Assembly (NCBI GenBank): GCA_902767275.1
Contig: CACXGY010000087.1
Span: 1-33,728 of the forward strand
Length of the DNA: 33,728 nucleotides
DNA from: an uncultured bacterium
GTDB lineage: Bacteria; Cyanobacteriota; Vampirovibrionia; Gastranaerophilales; Gastranaerophilaceae
Direction: 5' to 3'
A program made the translations under genes and the position numbers. Positions 12,347 through 20,245 of this stretch are shown in pieces. A model generated the notes under the pieces. That model was given only the letters and a program-made list of their open reading frames with translations. It was not told the origin of the DNA and made no database searches. Numbering within the stretch: position 1 is the first letter of the stretch; each line of letters opens with the position of its first letter.

Positions 12347-12735
12347 AAAGTTTTTGTTTGGTTTGTTTCTATATATTTGAAAAGTTTTTGCGGAATTTCT
12401 GATGAGAAATTATAATCTCCGTTAAAAGAGGTTATTTTTAACATTGATTTTGTTGACGATACATATACAATTGAAGCAAGAAATTTTTGATTATTGGTTA
12501 TAAAAACTATGTATCCACCCTTAGACTGAACTTCTTTAATCTGATAATCATATTCATTCATACCTGCAAGTGCTAAATAAAATAATTTTTCATATCCGAT
12601 AGGAAATGTTTTAACGCAGTTGGTTAATTCTGTTTTTGTATTTGCAGTGGCATTTTGAGTGTTAGCCGCATTAACGGGTAACAAAATAATAATACTAAAT
12701 ATAATACAAGTTATTAATTTTATTGTTCTTTCCAT
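12343..12735 (-). CDS. small exported protein of unknown function, coupled to polA
   Basis: A 130-residue protein with a signal peptide at about residues 1-24 (KLITCIIFSIIILLPVNA, cleavage after VNA). The mature part has Thr/Asn-rich beta strands, a YEKLFYLALAGMNEYDYQI segment and a final amphipathic helix (EIPQKLFKYIE). I cannot assign a family; a small periplasmic or outer-membrane-linked protein is likely. Its ATG lies inside the last codons of polA (16-base overlap), with no clear ribosome binding site, so translation probably depends on ribosomes finishing polA. Confidence 0.7.
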   Translation of the reverse strand: MERTIKLITCIIFSIIILLPVNAANTQNATANTKTELTNCVKTFPIGYEKLFYLALAGMNEYDYQIKEVQSKGGYIVFITNNQKFLASIVYVSSTKSMLKITSFNGDYNFSSEIPQKLFKYIETNQTKTF

Positions 12736-15446
12736 GATTCACCATAATTTATATCTACCTCAAGAGGAACTTTGAATGGTTGTCCAAGTTCCATACATTC
12801 AAGAACAATTGATTTTAGTTCTTCCAGTTCTGATTTTTCAACTTCAAATACTAATTCGTCGTGTACTTGCATAACCATTTTTGATTTCATATTATTTTCA
12901 GTTAACTTTTTGTCAACTTCAATCATAGCCATTTTTATTAAATCTGCTGCTGTACCTTGCAGAGGTTGATTGATTGCAGCCCGTTCAGCAAATTCTCTAA
13001 TTTGATAATTTGCACTTGAAAGTTCTGCACCTAAATATCTTTTTCTTCCGTAAAGCGTTTCTACATAACCATGCTCGTGTACAAAATCAATTTTATTAAT
13101 CATATACTGTTGTATTTTTGGATATGATTGGAAATATTTTTCAATAAATTCGCCTGCTTCTTCATTAGAAATATTTAATGATTTAGCAAGTCCGTATTTT
13201 GATTGTCCGTATACAATACCAAAGTTTACTGCTTTTGCTTTACGACGCATATCTTTTGTAACTTCTTCTATAGGAACACCAAATACTTTTGATGCTGTTA
13301 GAGTGTGAACATCAATATTTTTTGTAAACGCTTCTATTAAATGTTCATCTTCTGCAACGTGTGCTAATAACCTTAATTCTATTTGAGAATAATCTGCTGA
13401 TAACATTAAATAGTGTTCTCTGTCTTGCGGACAAAAAGCATTTCTTATTTTGTTTCCTTCTTCTGAGCGAATAGGAATATTTTGCAGATTAGGATTAGAC
13501 GACGACAATCTGCCTGTAACGGTTGTCGCTTGATTATATGTGGTATGTATTCTTCCGTCACGTTTGCTTATTAGCGTTGGCAAAGAATCTGTGTATGTAG
13601 AACGAAGTTTTGAAAATTTTCTGTGTTGAAGAATAAAATCACATATTTCATAATCATTTGCGAGTTCTTCTAATATTTCAGCAGACGTTGAACGTTTTCT
13701 TTTTTTAGTTTTGATTTCAAGTTTGTCATATAAAACTTCTGCAACTTGTTTAGGAGAATTGATATTAAAAGGTCCGCCGGCAAGTTGATATATAAAATCT
13801 TCCAATTCTGCCAGTTTTTCTGTCATAAAATCCGATAGCGATTTAAGATAGCCTGTATCTATTGCTACACCTGTATATTCCATTTTTGCAAGAACAGATG
13901 TTAATGGCAGTTCTATTTCATTTACCAATTTTTGTTCTTGTTCCGATAAATTTTTCCTCCAATAGTTAGCAAGGTTAAATATAGAATATGCTTCGTCACA
14001 TGCATAAAGACATGCCGATGTAAGAAATTCTGAATTAATTTCTTGCTTTTCTCCCATTATGTGATTAAGAAAATCCAATGCCTGCGACTCTATTTGATGG
14101 CTTCTGTTCGGGTCTTTTACATAACTCGCAAGTAAAATATCATATTCAATACCGTCAAGAATAATTCCGTTTTCTCTTAAAATATAATAGTTCTTTTTAG
14201 CATCATAAAATATTTTTTTTATATTTTTATCTTCTAAGAGCGGTTTTAAAAGAGAGAGAGTATTTTCTTTGTTTTTTATAAAATAATTTTTTCCGTAAGA
14301 TACAGAAAATCCGAGAATATCTGATTTGTCCGCATAAGTATTTATTGCAAAACATTCTTGTTCTTTTAATTCTTTAATAAGATTTTTTAAATCATTCTCT
14401 GATTCAATAATAGTACTGTCTAACTCAGAAATGTCCTCTACGGTTTCTTTAATAGCCTGTGTAAATAATCCTAATTGTCCTGTCCCTTCTTGTTGATTAT
14501 TTTTTTGTTCAAGTATAGGGATTTGTTTTTCGGATAAATCCATACTTTTTGCTTTTTCAGGATTAAAAGATGCTAGTATTTTGTTTATATTTTTTATAAA
14601 AGAATAAGATTGCATACTTCTTAAAAATTCACTAACTTTATTGATATCAGGCAGTGCAACTTCGGCTTTATCAAAATCAAAATCAATATCAACATCAAGT
14701 TTGATAGTTGCTAATTGTTGACTTAGTTTTGCAATTTCTTTTCCTGTGCATATTTTTTCTTTTAAAGATTTTTGTTGAATATTTTCGCAGTTTTTAAGAA
14801 CATTATCTAATCTTTGGTATTCTGCAAGTAGTTTTTGAGCGGTTTTTTCTCCGATACCTTTGATACCGGGAATGTTATCGGAAGTATCTCCTCTCAGACC
14901 TTTATAATCAATAACTTGGTTAGGATATACACCCAATTTATCATATACTCGATTCCAGTTGTACTCAACCAATTCGCCCTTAGATGGAATGAGAACTTTG
15001 ATTAATCCCTCTTTATCAACAAGTTGAAAAGAGTCTTGATCTCCTGTCAGAATTAATGTTTTGTGCCCCAGTTTAGCCGCTCTCGTAGAAATAGTACCTA
15101 TAAGGTCATCTGCTTCGAATCCTTGACGTGTGTAGATTGGAATATCAAATGCTTTAAGACCTTGACAAATTAACTCTAATTGAGTGCCTAGTGAATCCGG
15201 CATTGATTCTCTATTTGCCTTATAATCTTCGTACATTTCAGTTCTAAATGTATGATGCGAAACATCAAATGTTACAGCGATTGAGTCAGGATGAATTTTT
15301 CCGAGTAAATCAAAAATAGCCTTAAAAAAACCATATACAGCCCATGTTGGTTGGTTTTCGGAATTTTTCATTGCGGTGCGTTCAAGTGCAAAAAATTGTC
15401 TGAATGCAAGGGCATGCCCGTCAATTAACACTAATGTTTTACTCAC
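12720..15446 (-). CDS. polA: DNA polymerase I
   Basis: A 908-residue polymerase for repair and RNA-primer removal. The N-terminal 5' nuclease (1-290) is intact: LIDGHALAFR, FEADDLIGT, ILTGDQDSF and GLRGDTSDNIPGIKGIGEKT. The middle domain (about 335-500) aligns in position with the 3'-5' exonuclease, but its metal motifs are gone: the DxE site reads CFAINTYADKS, the Exo II site reads FYDAKKNYYIL, and Exo III reads YACDEAYS. It should lack proofreading. The polymerase has motif A DYSQIELRLLAH (near 684), motif B RRKAKAVNFGIVYG (near 740) and motif C QVHDELVFEV (near 865). The start codon is GTG at 15446, with GGGGA seven bases upstream. A small exported protein gene overlaps its end. Confidence 0.95.
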   Translation of the reverse strand: MSKTLVLIDGHALAFRQFFALERTAMKNSENQPTWAVYGFFKAIFDLLGKIHPDSIAVTFDVSHHTFRTEMYEDYKANRESMPDSLGTQLELICQGLKAFDIPIYTRQGFEADDLIGTISTRAAKLGHKTLILTGDQDSFQLVDKEGLIKVLIPSKGELVEYNWNRVYDKLGVYPNQVIDYKGLRGDTSDNIPGIKGIGEKTAQKLLAEYQRLDNVLKNCENIQQKSLKEKICTGKEIAKLSQQLATIKLDVDIDFDFDKAEVALPDINKVSEFLRSMQSYSFIKNINKILASFNPEKAKSMDLSEKQIPILEQKNNQQEGTGQLGLFTQAIKETVEDISELDSTIIESENDLKNLIKELKEQECFAINTYADKSDILGFSVSYGKNYFIKNKENTLSLLKPLLEDKNIKKIFYDAKKNYYILRENGIILDGIEYDILLASYVKDPNRSHQIESQALDFLNHIMGEKQEINSEFLTSACLYACDEAYSIFNLANYWRKNLSEQEQKLVNEIELPLTSVLAKMEYTGVAIDTGYLKSLSDFMTEKLAELEDFIYQLAGGPFNINSPKQVAEVLYDKLEIKTKKRKRSTSAEILEELANDYEICDFILQHRKFSKLRSTYTDSLPTLISKRDGRIHTTYNQATTVTGRLSSSNPNLQNIPIRSEEGNKIRNAFCPQDREHYLMLSADYSQIELRLLAHVAEDEHLIEAFTKNIDVHTLTASKVFGVPIEEVTKDMRRKAKAVNFGIVYGQSKYGLAKSLNISNEEAGEFIEKYFQSYPKIQQYMINKIDFVHEHGYVETLYGRKRYLGAELSSANYQIREFAERAAINQPLQGTAADLIKMAMIEVDKKLTENNMKSKMVMQVHDELVFEVEKSELEELKSIVLECMELGQPFKVPLEVDINYGESWKEQ

Positions 15447-15615
15447 TTCTTATTCCCCAAATCTATCTAACACCTTTATATAATAGCACAATTCCTATAT
15501 TTAATAAAGAGTGGTAAAATAAAAATTCTTTTTTACAATTGCCTGATTGTTTAATAAAATTATGCAATCTTTGTAAATTTATGTAACAGTTTTGATGAAA
15601 ATTAAGTTAAAATTT

Positions 15616-15644
15616 TTGTAAAAAATAAATATCTGTAGTTTAAT
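15616..15644 (+). promoter_or_regulatory. probable promoter of the AAA+ gene cluster
   Basis: TTGTAA (15616-15621), a 17-base spacer and TTTAAT (15639-15644, five of six consensus bases) lie 37 bases before the first ATG of the cluster. The region 15447-15615 lies between divergent genes, is AT-rich and has no gene; it must also carry the polA promoter. Confidence 0.45.
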
Positions 15645-15681
15645 AATAAAAGGGCAAAACGGTTGATTGAAAGTTTAAATC

Positions 15682-16962
15682 ATGGACATAAATACCAACT
15701 ATCAAGGTAGTTTTACTGCGGTCAGTATAAATCCAAGAAATATAAAAAAGAAAACGATTTCAAAGGCAAATGAAATAATAAATGCCGGTGTTGAACAAAT
15801 ATTGCGTATTAGAAATACACGAAAATGTGATACGGTTGAAATATTGAATAATCGTCATGACCAAGTTACGGAAGCAATGAATCAACGTCGTGATTTGATT
15901 AGAAAACAGCCGTGGTGGGTTATAAAATGGAATGATCTTCGCAAAATTAATAAAGAAGAAAGAAAAATCAAGAGTAATATTAACAAAAGTCGTGCAAAAT
16001 CGTATCAAGAACGTGATAAACAAGTTATAAATATAGAAGAAGTTGTGAATAAGGTTGAAGAACAAACCCGTTTAATTGAAGAACGTCAACTTCGAGAAAA
16101 AGAAAGATATGAGCGAAATTATGAGATGGATATGCTGCGTGGCAGATATCAACACTCAAATAACGGTTTTTCATCATTAGCAGGTTATAAAACCGAGAAA
16201 AATGTTTTGGACAAGTATTTTATTACAGAAATATTAAAGGAACAAAAAGGAGAACCCGCAGATGTACCGGGAAGTGTGTTATTCTTTGGTCCTACAGGTA
16301 ACGGGAAATCTACTTTTGCAAAAGCGTTTGCTAAAGAAACGGGGTGTAATATTGTTCCTCTTAGAATTAAAACAGCAACGACGGCTACACGTTATGAGGA
16401 TTTTCTTGAAAATCTTCATCAAAAAGCGGATAAAGCAGAAGAAAATTTTCAAGCAACAGGGAAAAGAACAATATTATTTATAGATGAATTTTCAAAAGTT
16501 GCAGGAGAAAACTCTCCTATTCTTCCTAATTTAGAGGAGTTTTTGACAACTTGTTCCGACAGGTATCATTGTACTGTTTTCGGTGCAACAAATCATCCGC
16601 TCAGTATTAAGTTACCTATGACAGGAGAAAAATCTGTATTTCCTTACAAAGTTTCAGTTGACCCGCCAAATACGGAAAATAAAACTGCAGTATTAAAATA
16701 TTATTTAAAAGAACGACTCCCTAAAGGAACTGATTATAAACCTATAACTCAAGAACTTGAACGAGTTGAAAACGAATCAGAATCAAGGTTTAGTATTTCA
16801 CAAATAAGAAATGAAATTTGTATAAGCGGATTTAAAAAAGAAATGACAACAGATGAGGTCTTAGAGAAAATAAATCAAACAGAACCTGCTATTTCCAAGC
16901 AGGATATGGAAAAATATAATAGAGAAATGATGGTACTAATGGATAATAAAGTTGAGGTGTAG
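15682..16962 (+). CDS. AAA+ ATPase, active member of a three-gene AAA cluster
   Basis: A 426-residue protein. Residues 1-80 start with SFTAVSI, a short motif type recurring at N-termini in such genomes. Residues about 85-150 are strongly charged and probably coiled coil. The AAA+ domain starts at FSSLAGYKTEKNVLDKYF (163-180) and has Walker A GPTGNGKS (203-210), Walker B ILFIDEF (264-270), sensor-1 N304 in FGATNHP, and a helical lid with SRFSISQIRNEI (369-380). The usual arginine-finger text is replaced by LPMTGEKSVFPYKVSVDPP. No protease or other enzyme domain is fused. It probably works as a classic AAA remodelling ATPase, perhaps in a ring with the two related proteins encoded next. The ribosome binding site is weak. 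Substrate and function are unknown. Confidence 0.85.
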   Translation: MDINTNYQGSFTAVSINPRNIKKKTISKANEIINAGVEQILRIRNTRKCDTVEILNNRHDQVTEAMNQRRDLIRKQPWWVIKWNDLRKINKEERKIKSNINKSRAKSYQERDKQVINIEEVVNKVEEQTRLIEERQLREKERYERNYEMDMLRGRYQHSNNGFSSLAGYKTEKNVLDKYFITEILKEQKGEPADVPGSVLFFGPTGNGKSTFAKAFAKETGCNIVPLRIKTATTATRYEDFLENLHQKADKAEENFQATGKRTILFIDEFSKVAGENSPILPNLEEFLTTCSDRYHCTVFGATNHPLSIKLPMTGEKSVFPYKVSVDPPNTENKTAVLKYYLKERLPKGTDYKPITQELERVENESESRFSISQIRNEICISGFKKEMTTDEVLEKINQTEPAISKQDMEKYNREMMVLMDNKVEV

Positions 16963-16964
16963 CA

Positions 16965-17834
16965 TTGGTTGAAAGTGTTTCACAAAAGCAATCAACTTCT
17001 GTAAGTTTTTTGCAAAAAATTAATGGTCAAACAAAACGAAACGGTGTATATGCAGGTGCTGCTGTCGCAGGAGGCATTGTCGGCAGTACAATAGGGTATA
17101 GTGCATATAGTAAAAAAGCCGGTAAATTATCTGAGTTAAAAGACAGTTTTGAAAAAACAAAGCCGACAGAGGAATCTGTTAAATTACGTGAAAATATCAG
17201 TTCTGATTTGTGCGATTTAATCAGACGTACAAATGAAGGAAATACTGTTTCTATGCCAAACAGTATTCTTTTAGTGACAGAAAATAATAACTATGCCAAA
17301 AATGTTTCTGATTGGATAGCAAATAAGAGCAACGCAAATTATATTAAAATTGATACTCAAACAGAAGAACTGTTAGACGCTCTTGAGTTAGCGGAAGATA
17401 ACCATAAAAACGGGAATTGGACAATTATACATGCGGAAAATTTAGATAAATATATTAACAAACAGCAGCAGGATAAAAGTGTTGTTGAGTCAGTAAAAGA
17501 TATTCTGAGTGCAAGTGCTGAGGATTATCATTCAACTATAATATTTTCGACAAAAAATCCTAAAGAATTAGATGAAATAGCACTTCAACCGCATAGAGTA
17601 AAATCAATTTTTTATCTTGATACTGTTCCGGAGAAAGATTTTTTTGCACCGGAAAATATGGCAAAAATGGATAAAGAAATTAAAACTATGGAAAAAAGTT
17701 TATCAAAAACAAAAATATTATCGAAATTTGGGGTTGTTGGTGCTATTATAGGTTTAGCAGGCGGTGTAATTTTAAATCAAATTATCAGGAGTAAAGATGA
17801 TTCCGGCAATACAGACAGTATTACAAAAAAATAA
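16965..17834 (+). CDS. AAA-fold protein without Walker motifs, two membrane segments
   Basis: A 289-residue protein starting at TTG (16965), two bases after the previous stop, with GAGGTG five bases upstream. It has hydrophobic Gly-rich segments at about 28-48 (GVYAGAAVAGGIVGSTIGYS) and 255-273 (FGVVGAIIGLAGGVILNQI), so the central domain would sit on one side of a membrane. The centre matches the AAA layout of the upstream ATPase. MPNSILLVTENNNYAKNV (97-114) lies where Walker A should be but lacks GKT/S. WTIIHAENLD (152-161) lies where Walker B should be but lacks DE. DYHSTIIFSTKNPKELDEIA (187-206) covers the sensor-1 region. It is therefore probably a non-hydrolysing partner or membrane anchor. 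The fold call is by motif order and needs structure prediction. Confidence 0.78.
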   Translation: MVESVSQKQSTSVSFLQKINGQTKRNGVYAGAAVAGGIVGSTIGYSAYSKKAGKLSELKDSFEKTKPTEESVKLRENISSDLCDLIRRTNEGNTVSMPNSILLVTENNNYAKNVSDWIANKSNANYIKIDTQTEELLDALELAEDNHKNGNWTIIHAENLDKYINKQQQDKSVVESVKDILSASAEDYHSTIIFSTKNPKELDEIALQPHRVKSIFYLDTVPEKDFFAPENMAKMDKEIKTMEKSLSKTKILSKFGVVGAIIGLAGGVILNQIIRSKDDSGNTDSITKK

Positions 17835-19050
17835 TATTCCGAAATCGGAAAATAAAACAAATATGAAAACTCAACAAAAAGTAAATGATGTTGGGTTAAG
17901 ACAAGATGTTTTTCAAAAAAATCAACCTTCTTTTAAGGGCATAAAATTACCGTCAGGCGAGTATTCTATAGAAGAAGTAAGATATGCAAAAAAAGTGGTA
18001 GAAAAAGTTGGCGATGCTTGGAAAAAAGAGTTATATAAAAGAGAATATAATCGTCATAAAAATTCTCACGGAGTAATAGTTGCAGAAGGTCAAAACAAAT
18101 TTGCTAAATTTACGGACAGATTAATTGTAGATACTATGACATTAGGATTAGGCGAAATTTTTTATCAAACAAGGAATGCAGTCGATAGTCAAAAGGCAAA
18201 AAATACTGTATCAAGAATGTCAAAAGTTGTCAGCGATGTCAGACACATCAAATATAAAGAAGATACAGCAGCACTTGAGAAGGCTGAATTGAGTGCATTA
18301 AGAAGACTAGAGTATCAAAAAAAACTTATAGAAATAAAGGAAGAACGTATTCAACCGGAAATATTAGATACAATTCAACGTCAAAGAGAAGGTCGTTATG
18401 TTGATTTACCGAATAATATCATGTTTGCAAATAAAGATGAGAAGATAAATGAAGAACTAATCAATTGGACTATAGAAAATGCTAATGCAAATGTAAAGAC
18501 AGTGGATGCAAAAAAAGTTGAATTGTTAGATGTTTTAGATGAGGCAGAAGAACATTTTCAAGAGACCGGAGATTGGAATCTTATTCATGTTAAGAATATG
18601 GATTCTTTGTTAAATAAAGAAAGTGCTGATGAAAGTGTTATAGAATCAATGAAAGACATTATGAGTGCAACTGCAGAAGATTATCATACGACGATATTAT
18701 TTTCTGCTGCTCATCCGGAGAAATTGGACAGTATTGCTTTACAGCCTCATAGAGTCAGACAAATTGATGTTACGGATATCACATCGCCTATAAATATGGA
18801 TATAAAAGATGCAATAAGCAGGGTTCATGATGAAAAAAATATTAAAGAAACTCCTCTCAGTGTCGTTAACGATTTGTTGTTGATTGCTAATAAAGATGAC
18901 AAGTATAAAATGGATTGGCAAAATACTTTTTCTAAAAGCATATATAATGACGTAAGAAATAATTTGAAACAGAAATTCTTACAAGAGGATCACCCTAACG
19001 GGGTAGAATACATGAATATACTTGGCAGAGCAACGAAAAATCTAATATAA
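17797..19050 (+). CDS. second AAA-fold protein without Walker motifs, with helical N-terminal extension
   Basis: A 417-residue protein with AGGAG six bases before the ATG, so the 38-base overlap with the previous gene is probably real. The N-terminal part has PSFKGIKLPSG (44-54) and a long basic helical region (55-200) with one semi-hydrophobic stretch (VIVAEGQNK to MTLGLGEIFY). The domain at 203-325 is clearly related to the preceding protein: LPNNIMFANKDEK, NWTIENANANVKTVDAKKVE, LLDVLDEAEEHF, DWNLIHVKNMDSLL, ATAEDYHTTILFS and SIALQPHRVRQIDV. Walker A and B are missing here too. No membrane segment is obvious, so it could be the soluble dead subunit. It ends the cluster, followed by a terminator. 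Function unknown. Confidence 0.8.
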   Translation: MIPAIQTVLQKNNIPKSENKTNMKTQQKVNDVGLRQDVFQKNQPSFKGIKLPSGEYSIEEVRYAKKVVEKVGDAWKKELYKREYNRHKNSHGVIVAEGQNKFAKFTDRLIVDTMTLGLGEIFYQTRNAVDSQKAKNTVSRMSKVVSDVRHIKYKEDTAALEKAELSALRRLEYQKKLIEIKEERIQPEILDTIQRQREGRYVDLPNNIMFANKDEKINEELINWTIENANANVKTVDAKKVELLDVLDEAEEHFQETGDWNLIHVKNMDSLLNKESADESVIESMKDIMSATAEDYHTTILFSAAHPEKLDSIALQPHRVRQIDVTDITSPINMDIKDAISRVHDEKNIKETPLSVVNDLLLIANKDDKYKMDWQNTFSKSIYNDVRNNLKQKFLQEDHPNGVEYMNILGRATKNLI

Positions 19051-19066
19051 TAAGAATTATTTTTAC

Positions 19067-19110
19067 AAAAAAAAGGATGTTTAGCAGTAGAACTGAAAAC
19101 ATCCTTTTTT
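19067..19110. terminator. bidirectional terminator between converging genes
   Basis: The 14-bp stem AAAAAAGGATGTTT (19069-19082) and AAACATCCTTTTTT (19097-19110) closes a 14-base loop. Its A- and T-tracts suit termination of both the AAA+ cluster on the plus strand and the aminotransferase gene on the minus strand. Confidence 0.9.
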
Positions 19111-19126
19111 GTTATGTATAAATATG

Positions 19127-20245
19127 TTATACAAGTGCTTTAGAGTTTTCTACAAGTTTGATTAAAGTACTTGCAATAGTTTCTTGTTCTTCTCTTGTTA
19201 ATTCAGGGAACATAGGTAAAGACATAACAATTTCTGTATTCTTTTCAGTAATTGGTAACGAGCCTTTTCCTTGACCAAGCCATTCATTTACTTTTTGTAA
19301 ATGAAGCGGAATAGGATAATAAAGCATTGCACCTATGCCTGCATCATGTAATTTTTCAAATATTTCATCTCTGTTAGGAACTTTCACTGTATATTGATGA
19401 TATACGCAATAAGTATTGTCTAACTCAACAGGAGTAATAATATCAGAGCAAGAAGCGAATAATTCGTTATAAATTGCTGCTCTTTCACGTCTTTTTGTAT
19501 TCCATTCATCAATGTATGGTAATTTAACTCTTAAGATTGCTGCTTGAATTTCATCGAGTCTGGAGTTAACACCAATTTCATCATGGTGATAACGTATAGC
19601 CCCACCGTGGTTTCTTAAAGCGATAACTCTGTCTTTTAATGATTCAGAATTAGTAGTTATTAAACCGCCATCGCCCATTGTGCCGAGATTTTTTGTAGGA
19701 TAAAAACTATAACATCCGAAATCTCCGAATGTACCTACTTTTTGACCTTTATAAGATGAACCTATTGCTTGACAGCAGTCCTCAATTACGTGTAAATTGT
19801 GACGTTTTGCAATATTCATTATTCTGTCCATATCACAAGGTTGTCCGTATAAATGAACCGGGATAATTGCTTTTGTATTAGGTGTAATTGCTTCTTCAAT
19901 CTTGCTCGGATCAATGTTGAATGTTTCCGAATCAATATCAACAAAAACAGGTTTAGCACCTACTATTCCTATTGCTTCTGCTGTTGCAACAAATGTAAAT
20001 GCTGTTGTTATAACTTCATCACCATGACCTATATCTAATGCTCTTAATGCCAAATGGAGTGCATCTGTTCCTGAGTTTAAACCGACTGTATATTTTACTC
20101 CGATATAATCAGCAAGTTCTTGTTCTAATGATTTAGCGTTTTGTCCTAAAATATATGAACCTGAACGCATAACTTCGCATACTGCTTTTTCTGCGGCTTC
20201 GCCAATTTGTGCGTATTGACGTTTTGAATCAAATATAGGTATCAT
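19127..20245 (-). CDS. DegT/DnrJ/EryC1-family sugar aminotransferase
   Basis: A 372-residue PLP enzyme that aminates a keto-sugar nucleotide, usually with glutamate as donor, making amino sugars for surface polysaccharide. Landmarks: LNSGTDALHLALRAL (56-70) for phosphate binding; AFTFVATAEAI (82-92); VIEDCCQAIGS (153-163), whose Asp contacts PLP; the Schiff-base lysine K185 in SFYPTKNLGTMGDGG; NSRLDEIQAA; and YYPIPLHLQ. Length fits the family. The sequence is closer to WbpE/DegT-like enzymes than to ArnB, but the exact sugar cannot be read from motifs. AAAGGA precedes the ATG on the minus strand. It is a single-gene unit; other envelope-sugar genes lie elsewhere in the window. Confidence 0.9.
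   Translation of the reverse strand: MIPIFDSKRQYAQIGEAAEKAVCEVMRSGSYILGQNAKSLEQELADYIGVKYTVGLNSGTDALHLALRALDIGHGDEVITTAFTFVATAEAIGIVGAKPVFVDIDSETFNIDPSKIEEAITPNTKAIIPVHLYGQPCDMDRIMNIAKRHNLHVIEDCCQAIGSSYKGQKVGTFGDFGCYSFYPTKNLGTMGDGGLITTNSESLKDRVIALRNHGGAIRYHHDEIGVNSRLDEIQAAILRVKLPYIDEWNTKRRERAAIYNELFASCSDIITPVELDNTYCVYHQYTVKVPNRDEIFEKLHDAGIGAMLYYPIPLHLQKVNEWLGQGKGSLPITEKNTEIVMSLPMFPELTREEQETIASTLIKLVENSKALV

Follow-up and report, generated by a model that had tools for sequence, protein, structure and literature searches.

The three adjacent genes P1, P2 and P3 encode one AAA ATPase that has ATP-site motifs and no arginine finger of its own (the live subunit) and two Walker-less paralogues that keep the finger (the dead subunits). 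The reading we favour, with a probability of about 0.72, is that their products form an obligate hetero-oligomeric AAA+ machine with ATPase sites split between subunits; the assembly, trans-activation, ATPase activity and tethering of this machine are inferred. What is shown is the homology of the subunits, their predicted AAA folds, the loss and retention of catalytic residues, the conservation of the operon and a membrane bias of dead subunits. The initial annotation had proposed a hetero-oligomeric, membrane-tethered machine of one live and two dead proteins. This is supported, with assembly, ATPase activity and membrane location remaining inference, but the annotation overlooked the mechanism, namely that the finger is absent from the live subunit and kept by the dead ones.

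One live and two dead AAA subunits at a single locus

The window (the whole stretch of DNA analysed, 33.7 kb) is a complete contig of a 1.8-Mb draft genome. The trio is flanked by polA and a DegT-type aminotransferase gene, both on the minus strand and identified by reading their translations, with ruvB further out. The features used below are as follows.

15682..16962, + strand: P1, live AAA subunit, 426 aa (N-terminal part helical, followed by the AAA domain and a C-terminal lid)
15709..15720, + strand: P1 SFTA, N-terminal SFxG/A-type motif (SFKA in orthologues)
16288..16311, + strand: P1 Walker A GPTGNGKS, residues 203-210 (G203, G208 and K209 invariant in A2)
16471..16488, + strand: P1 Walker B ILFIDE, residues 264-269 (motif read in the P1 sequence)
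16591..16593, + strand: P1 sensor-1 Asn304 (invariant in A2; present in 99/101 live domains)
16636..16638, + strand: P1 Val319 at the p97 Arg359 (arginine-finger) column, finger missing (alignment; Val in all three orthologues)
16965..17834, + strand: P2, dead AAA subunit, 289 aa, TTG start (membrane segments either side of an AAA-like core)
17046..17105, + strand: P2 first Gly-rich membrane-like segment (marginal hydropathy, predicted helix)
17190..17615, + strand: P2 AAA-like core, residues 76-217 (P2/P3 alignment, Foldseek)
17595..17597, + strand: P2 Arg211 (PHRV), retained arginine finger (alignment to the p97 Arg359 column)
17721..17783, + strand: P2 second membrane segment, residues about 253-273 (hydropathy 1.99, AlphaFold)
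17797..19050, + strand: P3, dead AAA subunit, 417 aa (long helix at the N-terminal side)
17929..17940, + strand: P3 SFKG motif (invariant across four P3 orthologues)
18148..18387, + strand: P3 80-residue helix, residues 118-197 (AlphaFold)
18343..18786, + strand: P3 AAA-like core, residues 183-330 (P2/P3 alignment, AlphaFold, Foldseek)
18751..18753, + strand: P3 Arg319 (PHRV), retained arginine finger (invariant in A1 and A3)
19069..19110, no strand assigned: terminator hairpin with A and T tracts (-17.7 kcal/mol, z -4.2), common to the trio and the convergent DegT-type gene

P1 is a classical AAA ATPase of the Cdc48/p97-like type. It matches Pfam AAA (PF00004) with an E value of 5e-13 and 50 bits against a cut-off of 21.2, and the profile built from its family hits p97/Cdc48 (E 2e-46). 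It thus meets the test for a classical AAA protein, scoring above the PF00004 gathering threshold with Walker A, Walker B and sensor 1 in place. It fails the test for an arginine finger of its own in the second region of homology, where Val319 is Val in all orthologues, and these have no conserved basic residue nearby.

P2 and P3 share 44% identity over 141 aa (E 3e-41). Neither sequence contains a Walker A, Walker B or sensor-1 motif, and neither has a Pfam, NCBIfam, PADLOC or PHROGs match above threshold, single-protein scans returning only sub-threshold noise. P1 and P3 match each other directly across the AAA domain (E 2e-7), and the live-family profile matches the dead-family profile with a probability of 99.5% (E 3e-23). 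AlphaFold models of P2 and P3 have cores above pLDDT 90, for which the best PDB folds in Foldseek are p97, Cdc48, Vps4 and FtsH (probability 1.00). The two proteins are AAA domains that have diverged, the homology being established by profile and the fold predicted by modelling. Both meet the test for an AAA-like activator domain: a predicted AAA fold, no Walker motifs and Arg at the finger position. In the P3 model, helices beyond beta-5 might represent a lid.

Most of what the initial annotation read at this locus holds. The coordinates of all three ORFs, the 2-base gap between P1 and P2 and the 38-base overlap of P2 with P3 are correct, as are the full Walker A, Walker B and sensor-1 motifs of the first gene (GPTGNGKS, ILFIDE, Asn304) and the resemblance of the second and third. 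The claim that these two lack Walker motifs yet are AAA-like is upheld by the profile match and the predicted folds; a non-AAA fold, which would have refuted it, was not realised. The long helical extension in one dead copy is borne out by the P3 model, and the common terminator by the hairpin at 19069-19110. Two Gly-rich membrane segments in the other dead copy are only partly supported, since by the score used only the second segment of P2 is clearly hydrophobic. A common promoter is not demonstrated, because the promoter scan signal is indistinguishable from chance.

Recent gene conversion was considered as a general source of the likeness between P2 and P3 and rejected: at residues common to both, third codon positions mostly agree in only about half of cases, the exception being one locus (L103) with 32/43 identical. 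At L103, L104, L108 and the window, the P2 and P3 cores within a locus have locus-specific residues in common just before the arginine finger, suggesting a partner common to both.

Elsewhere in the window, a phage tail-collar protein and a terminase large subunit near the contig start (526-6274) mark a prophage or a remnant of one. No clean empty site was found in sister genomes. There polA and the DegT-type gene, which flank the trio within 12720-20245 of the window, lie in separate neighbourhoods, and the trio therefore sits at a rearranged junction.

Family distribution and retention of the arginine finger

The exact trio occurs in the same order, at about 30-44% identity, in three further genomes of another genus. 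These copies lie in two other genomic surroundings, and no other gene is conserved beside the window copy, so that a check for conserved neighbourhood returns an identical trio with different flanks. We found the wider family of live and dead AAA proteins in 93 of the 383 genomes sampled from the order Candidatus Gastranaerophilales and in none of seven genomes of the same genus; it has no listed match outside the order in a phylum-wide sample. Named relatives from public genomes are Candidatus Gastranaerophilales MAGs, save one contig labelled uncultured Clostridia (L101), which carries a dead-subunit fragment resembling a Gastranaerophilales locus (L028) and is probably misbinned. Viral contigs and phage records yielded no relatives, and plasmids only distant AAA proteins. 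We found no published account of such a system in the literature searched, consistent with the earlier statement that no named system has this composition.

Our neighbourhood sample comprised 82 loci, the window included. A dead subunit is held by 75 of them, and in 68 of these 75 a live one is also present, as neighbouring genes; the three genes rarely being together, which would have refuted the initial reading, was thus not realised. Sixty of the loci were picked through a dead-profile search, biasing the sample toward the presence of dead subunits, and the search profile contains the Arg column (one column of 357), which could slightly favour Arg-bearing members.

We aligned all domains to p97 D1 and took the p97 Arg359 column as the finger. 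Here 94/101 dead domains have Arg, against 33/101 live ones (Fisher p 4e-20, kinship ignored), and no column of the dead domains is better conserved. The ATP-site residues are distributed the other way, with the Walker-B Glu in 98/101 live versus 4/101 dead domains and the sensor-1 Asn in 99/101 versus 20/101. In 39 of the 68 mixed loci all live subunits lack Arg, and in every one of these 39 a dead partner has it; the window belongs to this class (P1 Val319, P2 Arg211, P3 Arg319). Strict complementarity is not family-wide, as 28 loci have Arg on both live and dead subunits, and some live proteins have Lys at or near the finger position, a possible substitute.

Relatedness within clades inflates these p values, which the tree and clustering correct only in part. 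A second alignment gave identical counts, and the Arg contrast persists after clustering at 90, 60 and 50% identity; clustering at 40% leaves only six live groups. In the tree, 103 of 110 dead domains fall in a single clade (support 0.97), 93 of them with Arg, and there are about seven Arg changes among live lineages. Arg has therefore outlasted the ATP site through most of the history of the family. The dead subunits have thus preserved an Arg that is of no use to them for ATP of their own.

A lid domain is often missing from dead subunits, which also span the membrane more often than live ones. Live proteins have a uniform, lid-sized C-terminal tail of about 107 aa, whereas 31/101 dead proteins end no more than 30 aa past the Arg. 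Hydrophobic membrane segments were counted in 38/108 dead proteins and 7/106 live ones (p 2e-7, kinship ignored). L026:11342-13702 and similar proteins of about 780 aa have live AAA domains with NE in place of DE in Walker B (18/101 live domains) and with a shortened finger loop. These NE-type proteins adjoin a recurrent family found beside family genes in 22 loci.

Proposed mechanism, precedents and rival explanations

In the mechanism we propose, P1 would bind ATP through Walker A, Walker B, sensor 1 and the lid, having no finger of its own, and P2 and P3 would bind no ATP and would instead reach into the ATP site of an adjacent P1 with Arg211 or Arg319. P1 would then hydrolyse ATP only when beside P2 or P3. 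The assembly could be an alternating ring, a partial ring or a filament, held at the membrane by the membrane segments of P2, with the long helix of P3 providing a second specificity or a scaffold. Its task would be to act on some protein at the membrane, although the substrate and cellular role are unidentified. Substrate threading is not assumed, because the live consensus lacks a p97-like pore-loop motif.

The closest precedent in mechanism is TorsinA of the metazoan ER and nuclear envelope, which like P1 is an ATP-binding AAA+ protein without its own arginine finger. Its partners LAP1 and LULL1 are membrane-anchored, have an AAA-like fold without Walker motifs or a C-terminal small domain and supply the finger (R563/R449; PMC4358337, PMC4999309), and so resemble P2 and P3 as Walker-less AAA-like partners with a conserved finger Arg. 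In contrast to TorsinA, P1 matches classical AAA (PF00004, Cdc48-like) and no Torsin model. Pfam searches with P1-P3 gave no Torsin or LAP1/LULL1 match, and the dead profile found no LAP1/LULL1 match by sequence in the PDB. The trio also differs in having two activators in one operon and in that the dead family seems to have common ancestry with the live family. We consider the likeness to be one of mechanism and probably convergent, because there is no sequence membership, with trans-activation by a partner Arg itself inferred. The existence of a ring is disputed even for Torsin, and the trio oligomer might likewise be a ring or a looser form.

Cdc48/p97, Vps4/CdvC and FtsH are the closest relatives in the PDB for live and dead members alike and share the AAA fold, with the Walker A/B, sensor 1 and lid found in P1. 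In these proteins the subunits that make up a site are identical or active, and each has a finger of its own. P1 has a single AAA domain, without the second AAA ring and N-domain of p97/Cdc48, and P1-P3 have no peptidase matches and thus no FtsH-like zinc-protease domain. The chloroplast Ycf2/Orf2971-FtsHi motor, among the Foldseek matches, is likewise a membrane-embedded hetero-oligomeric AAA motor, but its subunits are FtsH-derived. Clamp loaders and Mg-chelatase ChlI/ChlD are AAA+ assemblies with subunits unequal in ATPase capacity. ChlD is described as an allosteric regulator (PMC3789969). They belong to other AAA+ clades whose hallmark domains are absent from the trio, and their dead subunit has no membrane segments. 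PADLOC IetA models match the AAA region of P1 (7e-9), but no IetS-type subtilisin-like protease is adjacent, none of the protease models of PADLOC, Pfam or NCBIfam recognises P2 or P3, and IetAS is not known to include dead paralogues.

The dead subunits might instead be scaffolds or adaptors that bring a P1 homo-oligomer to the membrane or substrate without catalytic input. The variation of flanking domains and membrane segments among dead subunits and the retention of Arg by some live subunits speak for this. We think it unlikely, as it leaves unexplained why the finger column is the best conserved in dead domains and why P1-type live subunits lack a finger. Decay of P2 and P3 towards loss would account for the disappearance of Walker A, Walker B and sensor 1, but is refuted by conservation and all but excluded: the dead clade is old and keeps its Arg in 93 of 103 domains, and orthologues of the trio remain intact at about 30-44% identity.

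The trio might also belong to a mobile anti-phage defence or conflict system that centres on an AAA+ ATPase and comes and goes among close relatives. This would fit the patchy occurrence (0/7 same-genus genomes, 93/383 in the order) and the weak matches of live members to PADLOC IetA and TRIP13 models. Some loci also lie close to recombinases, methyltransferases or phage genes, as read from their sequences and not in all cases confirmed by family searches. However, the trio has no nuclease, protease, HORMA or toxin partner; the initial annotation had noted that no nuclease, protease or toxin is fused. Moreover, the PADLOC matches cover the generic AAA region and extend to no dead subunit, and viral contigs and phage records are without relatives. 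We regard this explanation as very improbable.

The authors of the LAP1 work stated that, as far as they knew, no such alternating live/dead assembly had been described before theirs (PMC4358337). If the split-site reading is true, the trio would provide the first finger-donating dead activators for this kind of bacterial machine, such activators being known so far for Torsin, a human disease protein for which the same activator logic holds as is proposed here. Dozens of natural variants with the live Arg kept or lost would make the rules and evolution of split sites testable in simple proteins. It would also offer an initial way into a variable set of genes, without annotation otherwise, in gut-associated, largely uncultured bacteria related to cyanobacteria. 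A bolder version, which we consider somewhat less likely than not, is that the Gastranaerophilales split-site AAA+ family arose independently of animals, that an ancient ATP-dead lineage serves solely as membrane-anchored finger donor, and that an SFxG tag marks components and clients.

An N-terminal SFKG motif and recurrent neighbours

The motif (I/V)SFK(G/A) lies within the first 60 residues in 42/217 family ORFs and 14/189 adjacent ORFs, compared with 4/222 distant ORFs, 0/90 ORFs of same-genus genomes that lack the system and 0.4% of internal segments. The enrichment spans many loci (L024-L161). The motif may be a docking or targeting tag, a possibility that is inferred. Large neighbours also recur at other family loci (L085:10991-14389, L024:2574-6167 and L160:3152-5347). 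They are an ankyrin-repeat protein and proteins 1132-1197 aa long, one of which contains HEAT repeats; all are possible candidates for clients or scaffolds.
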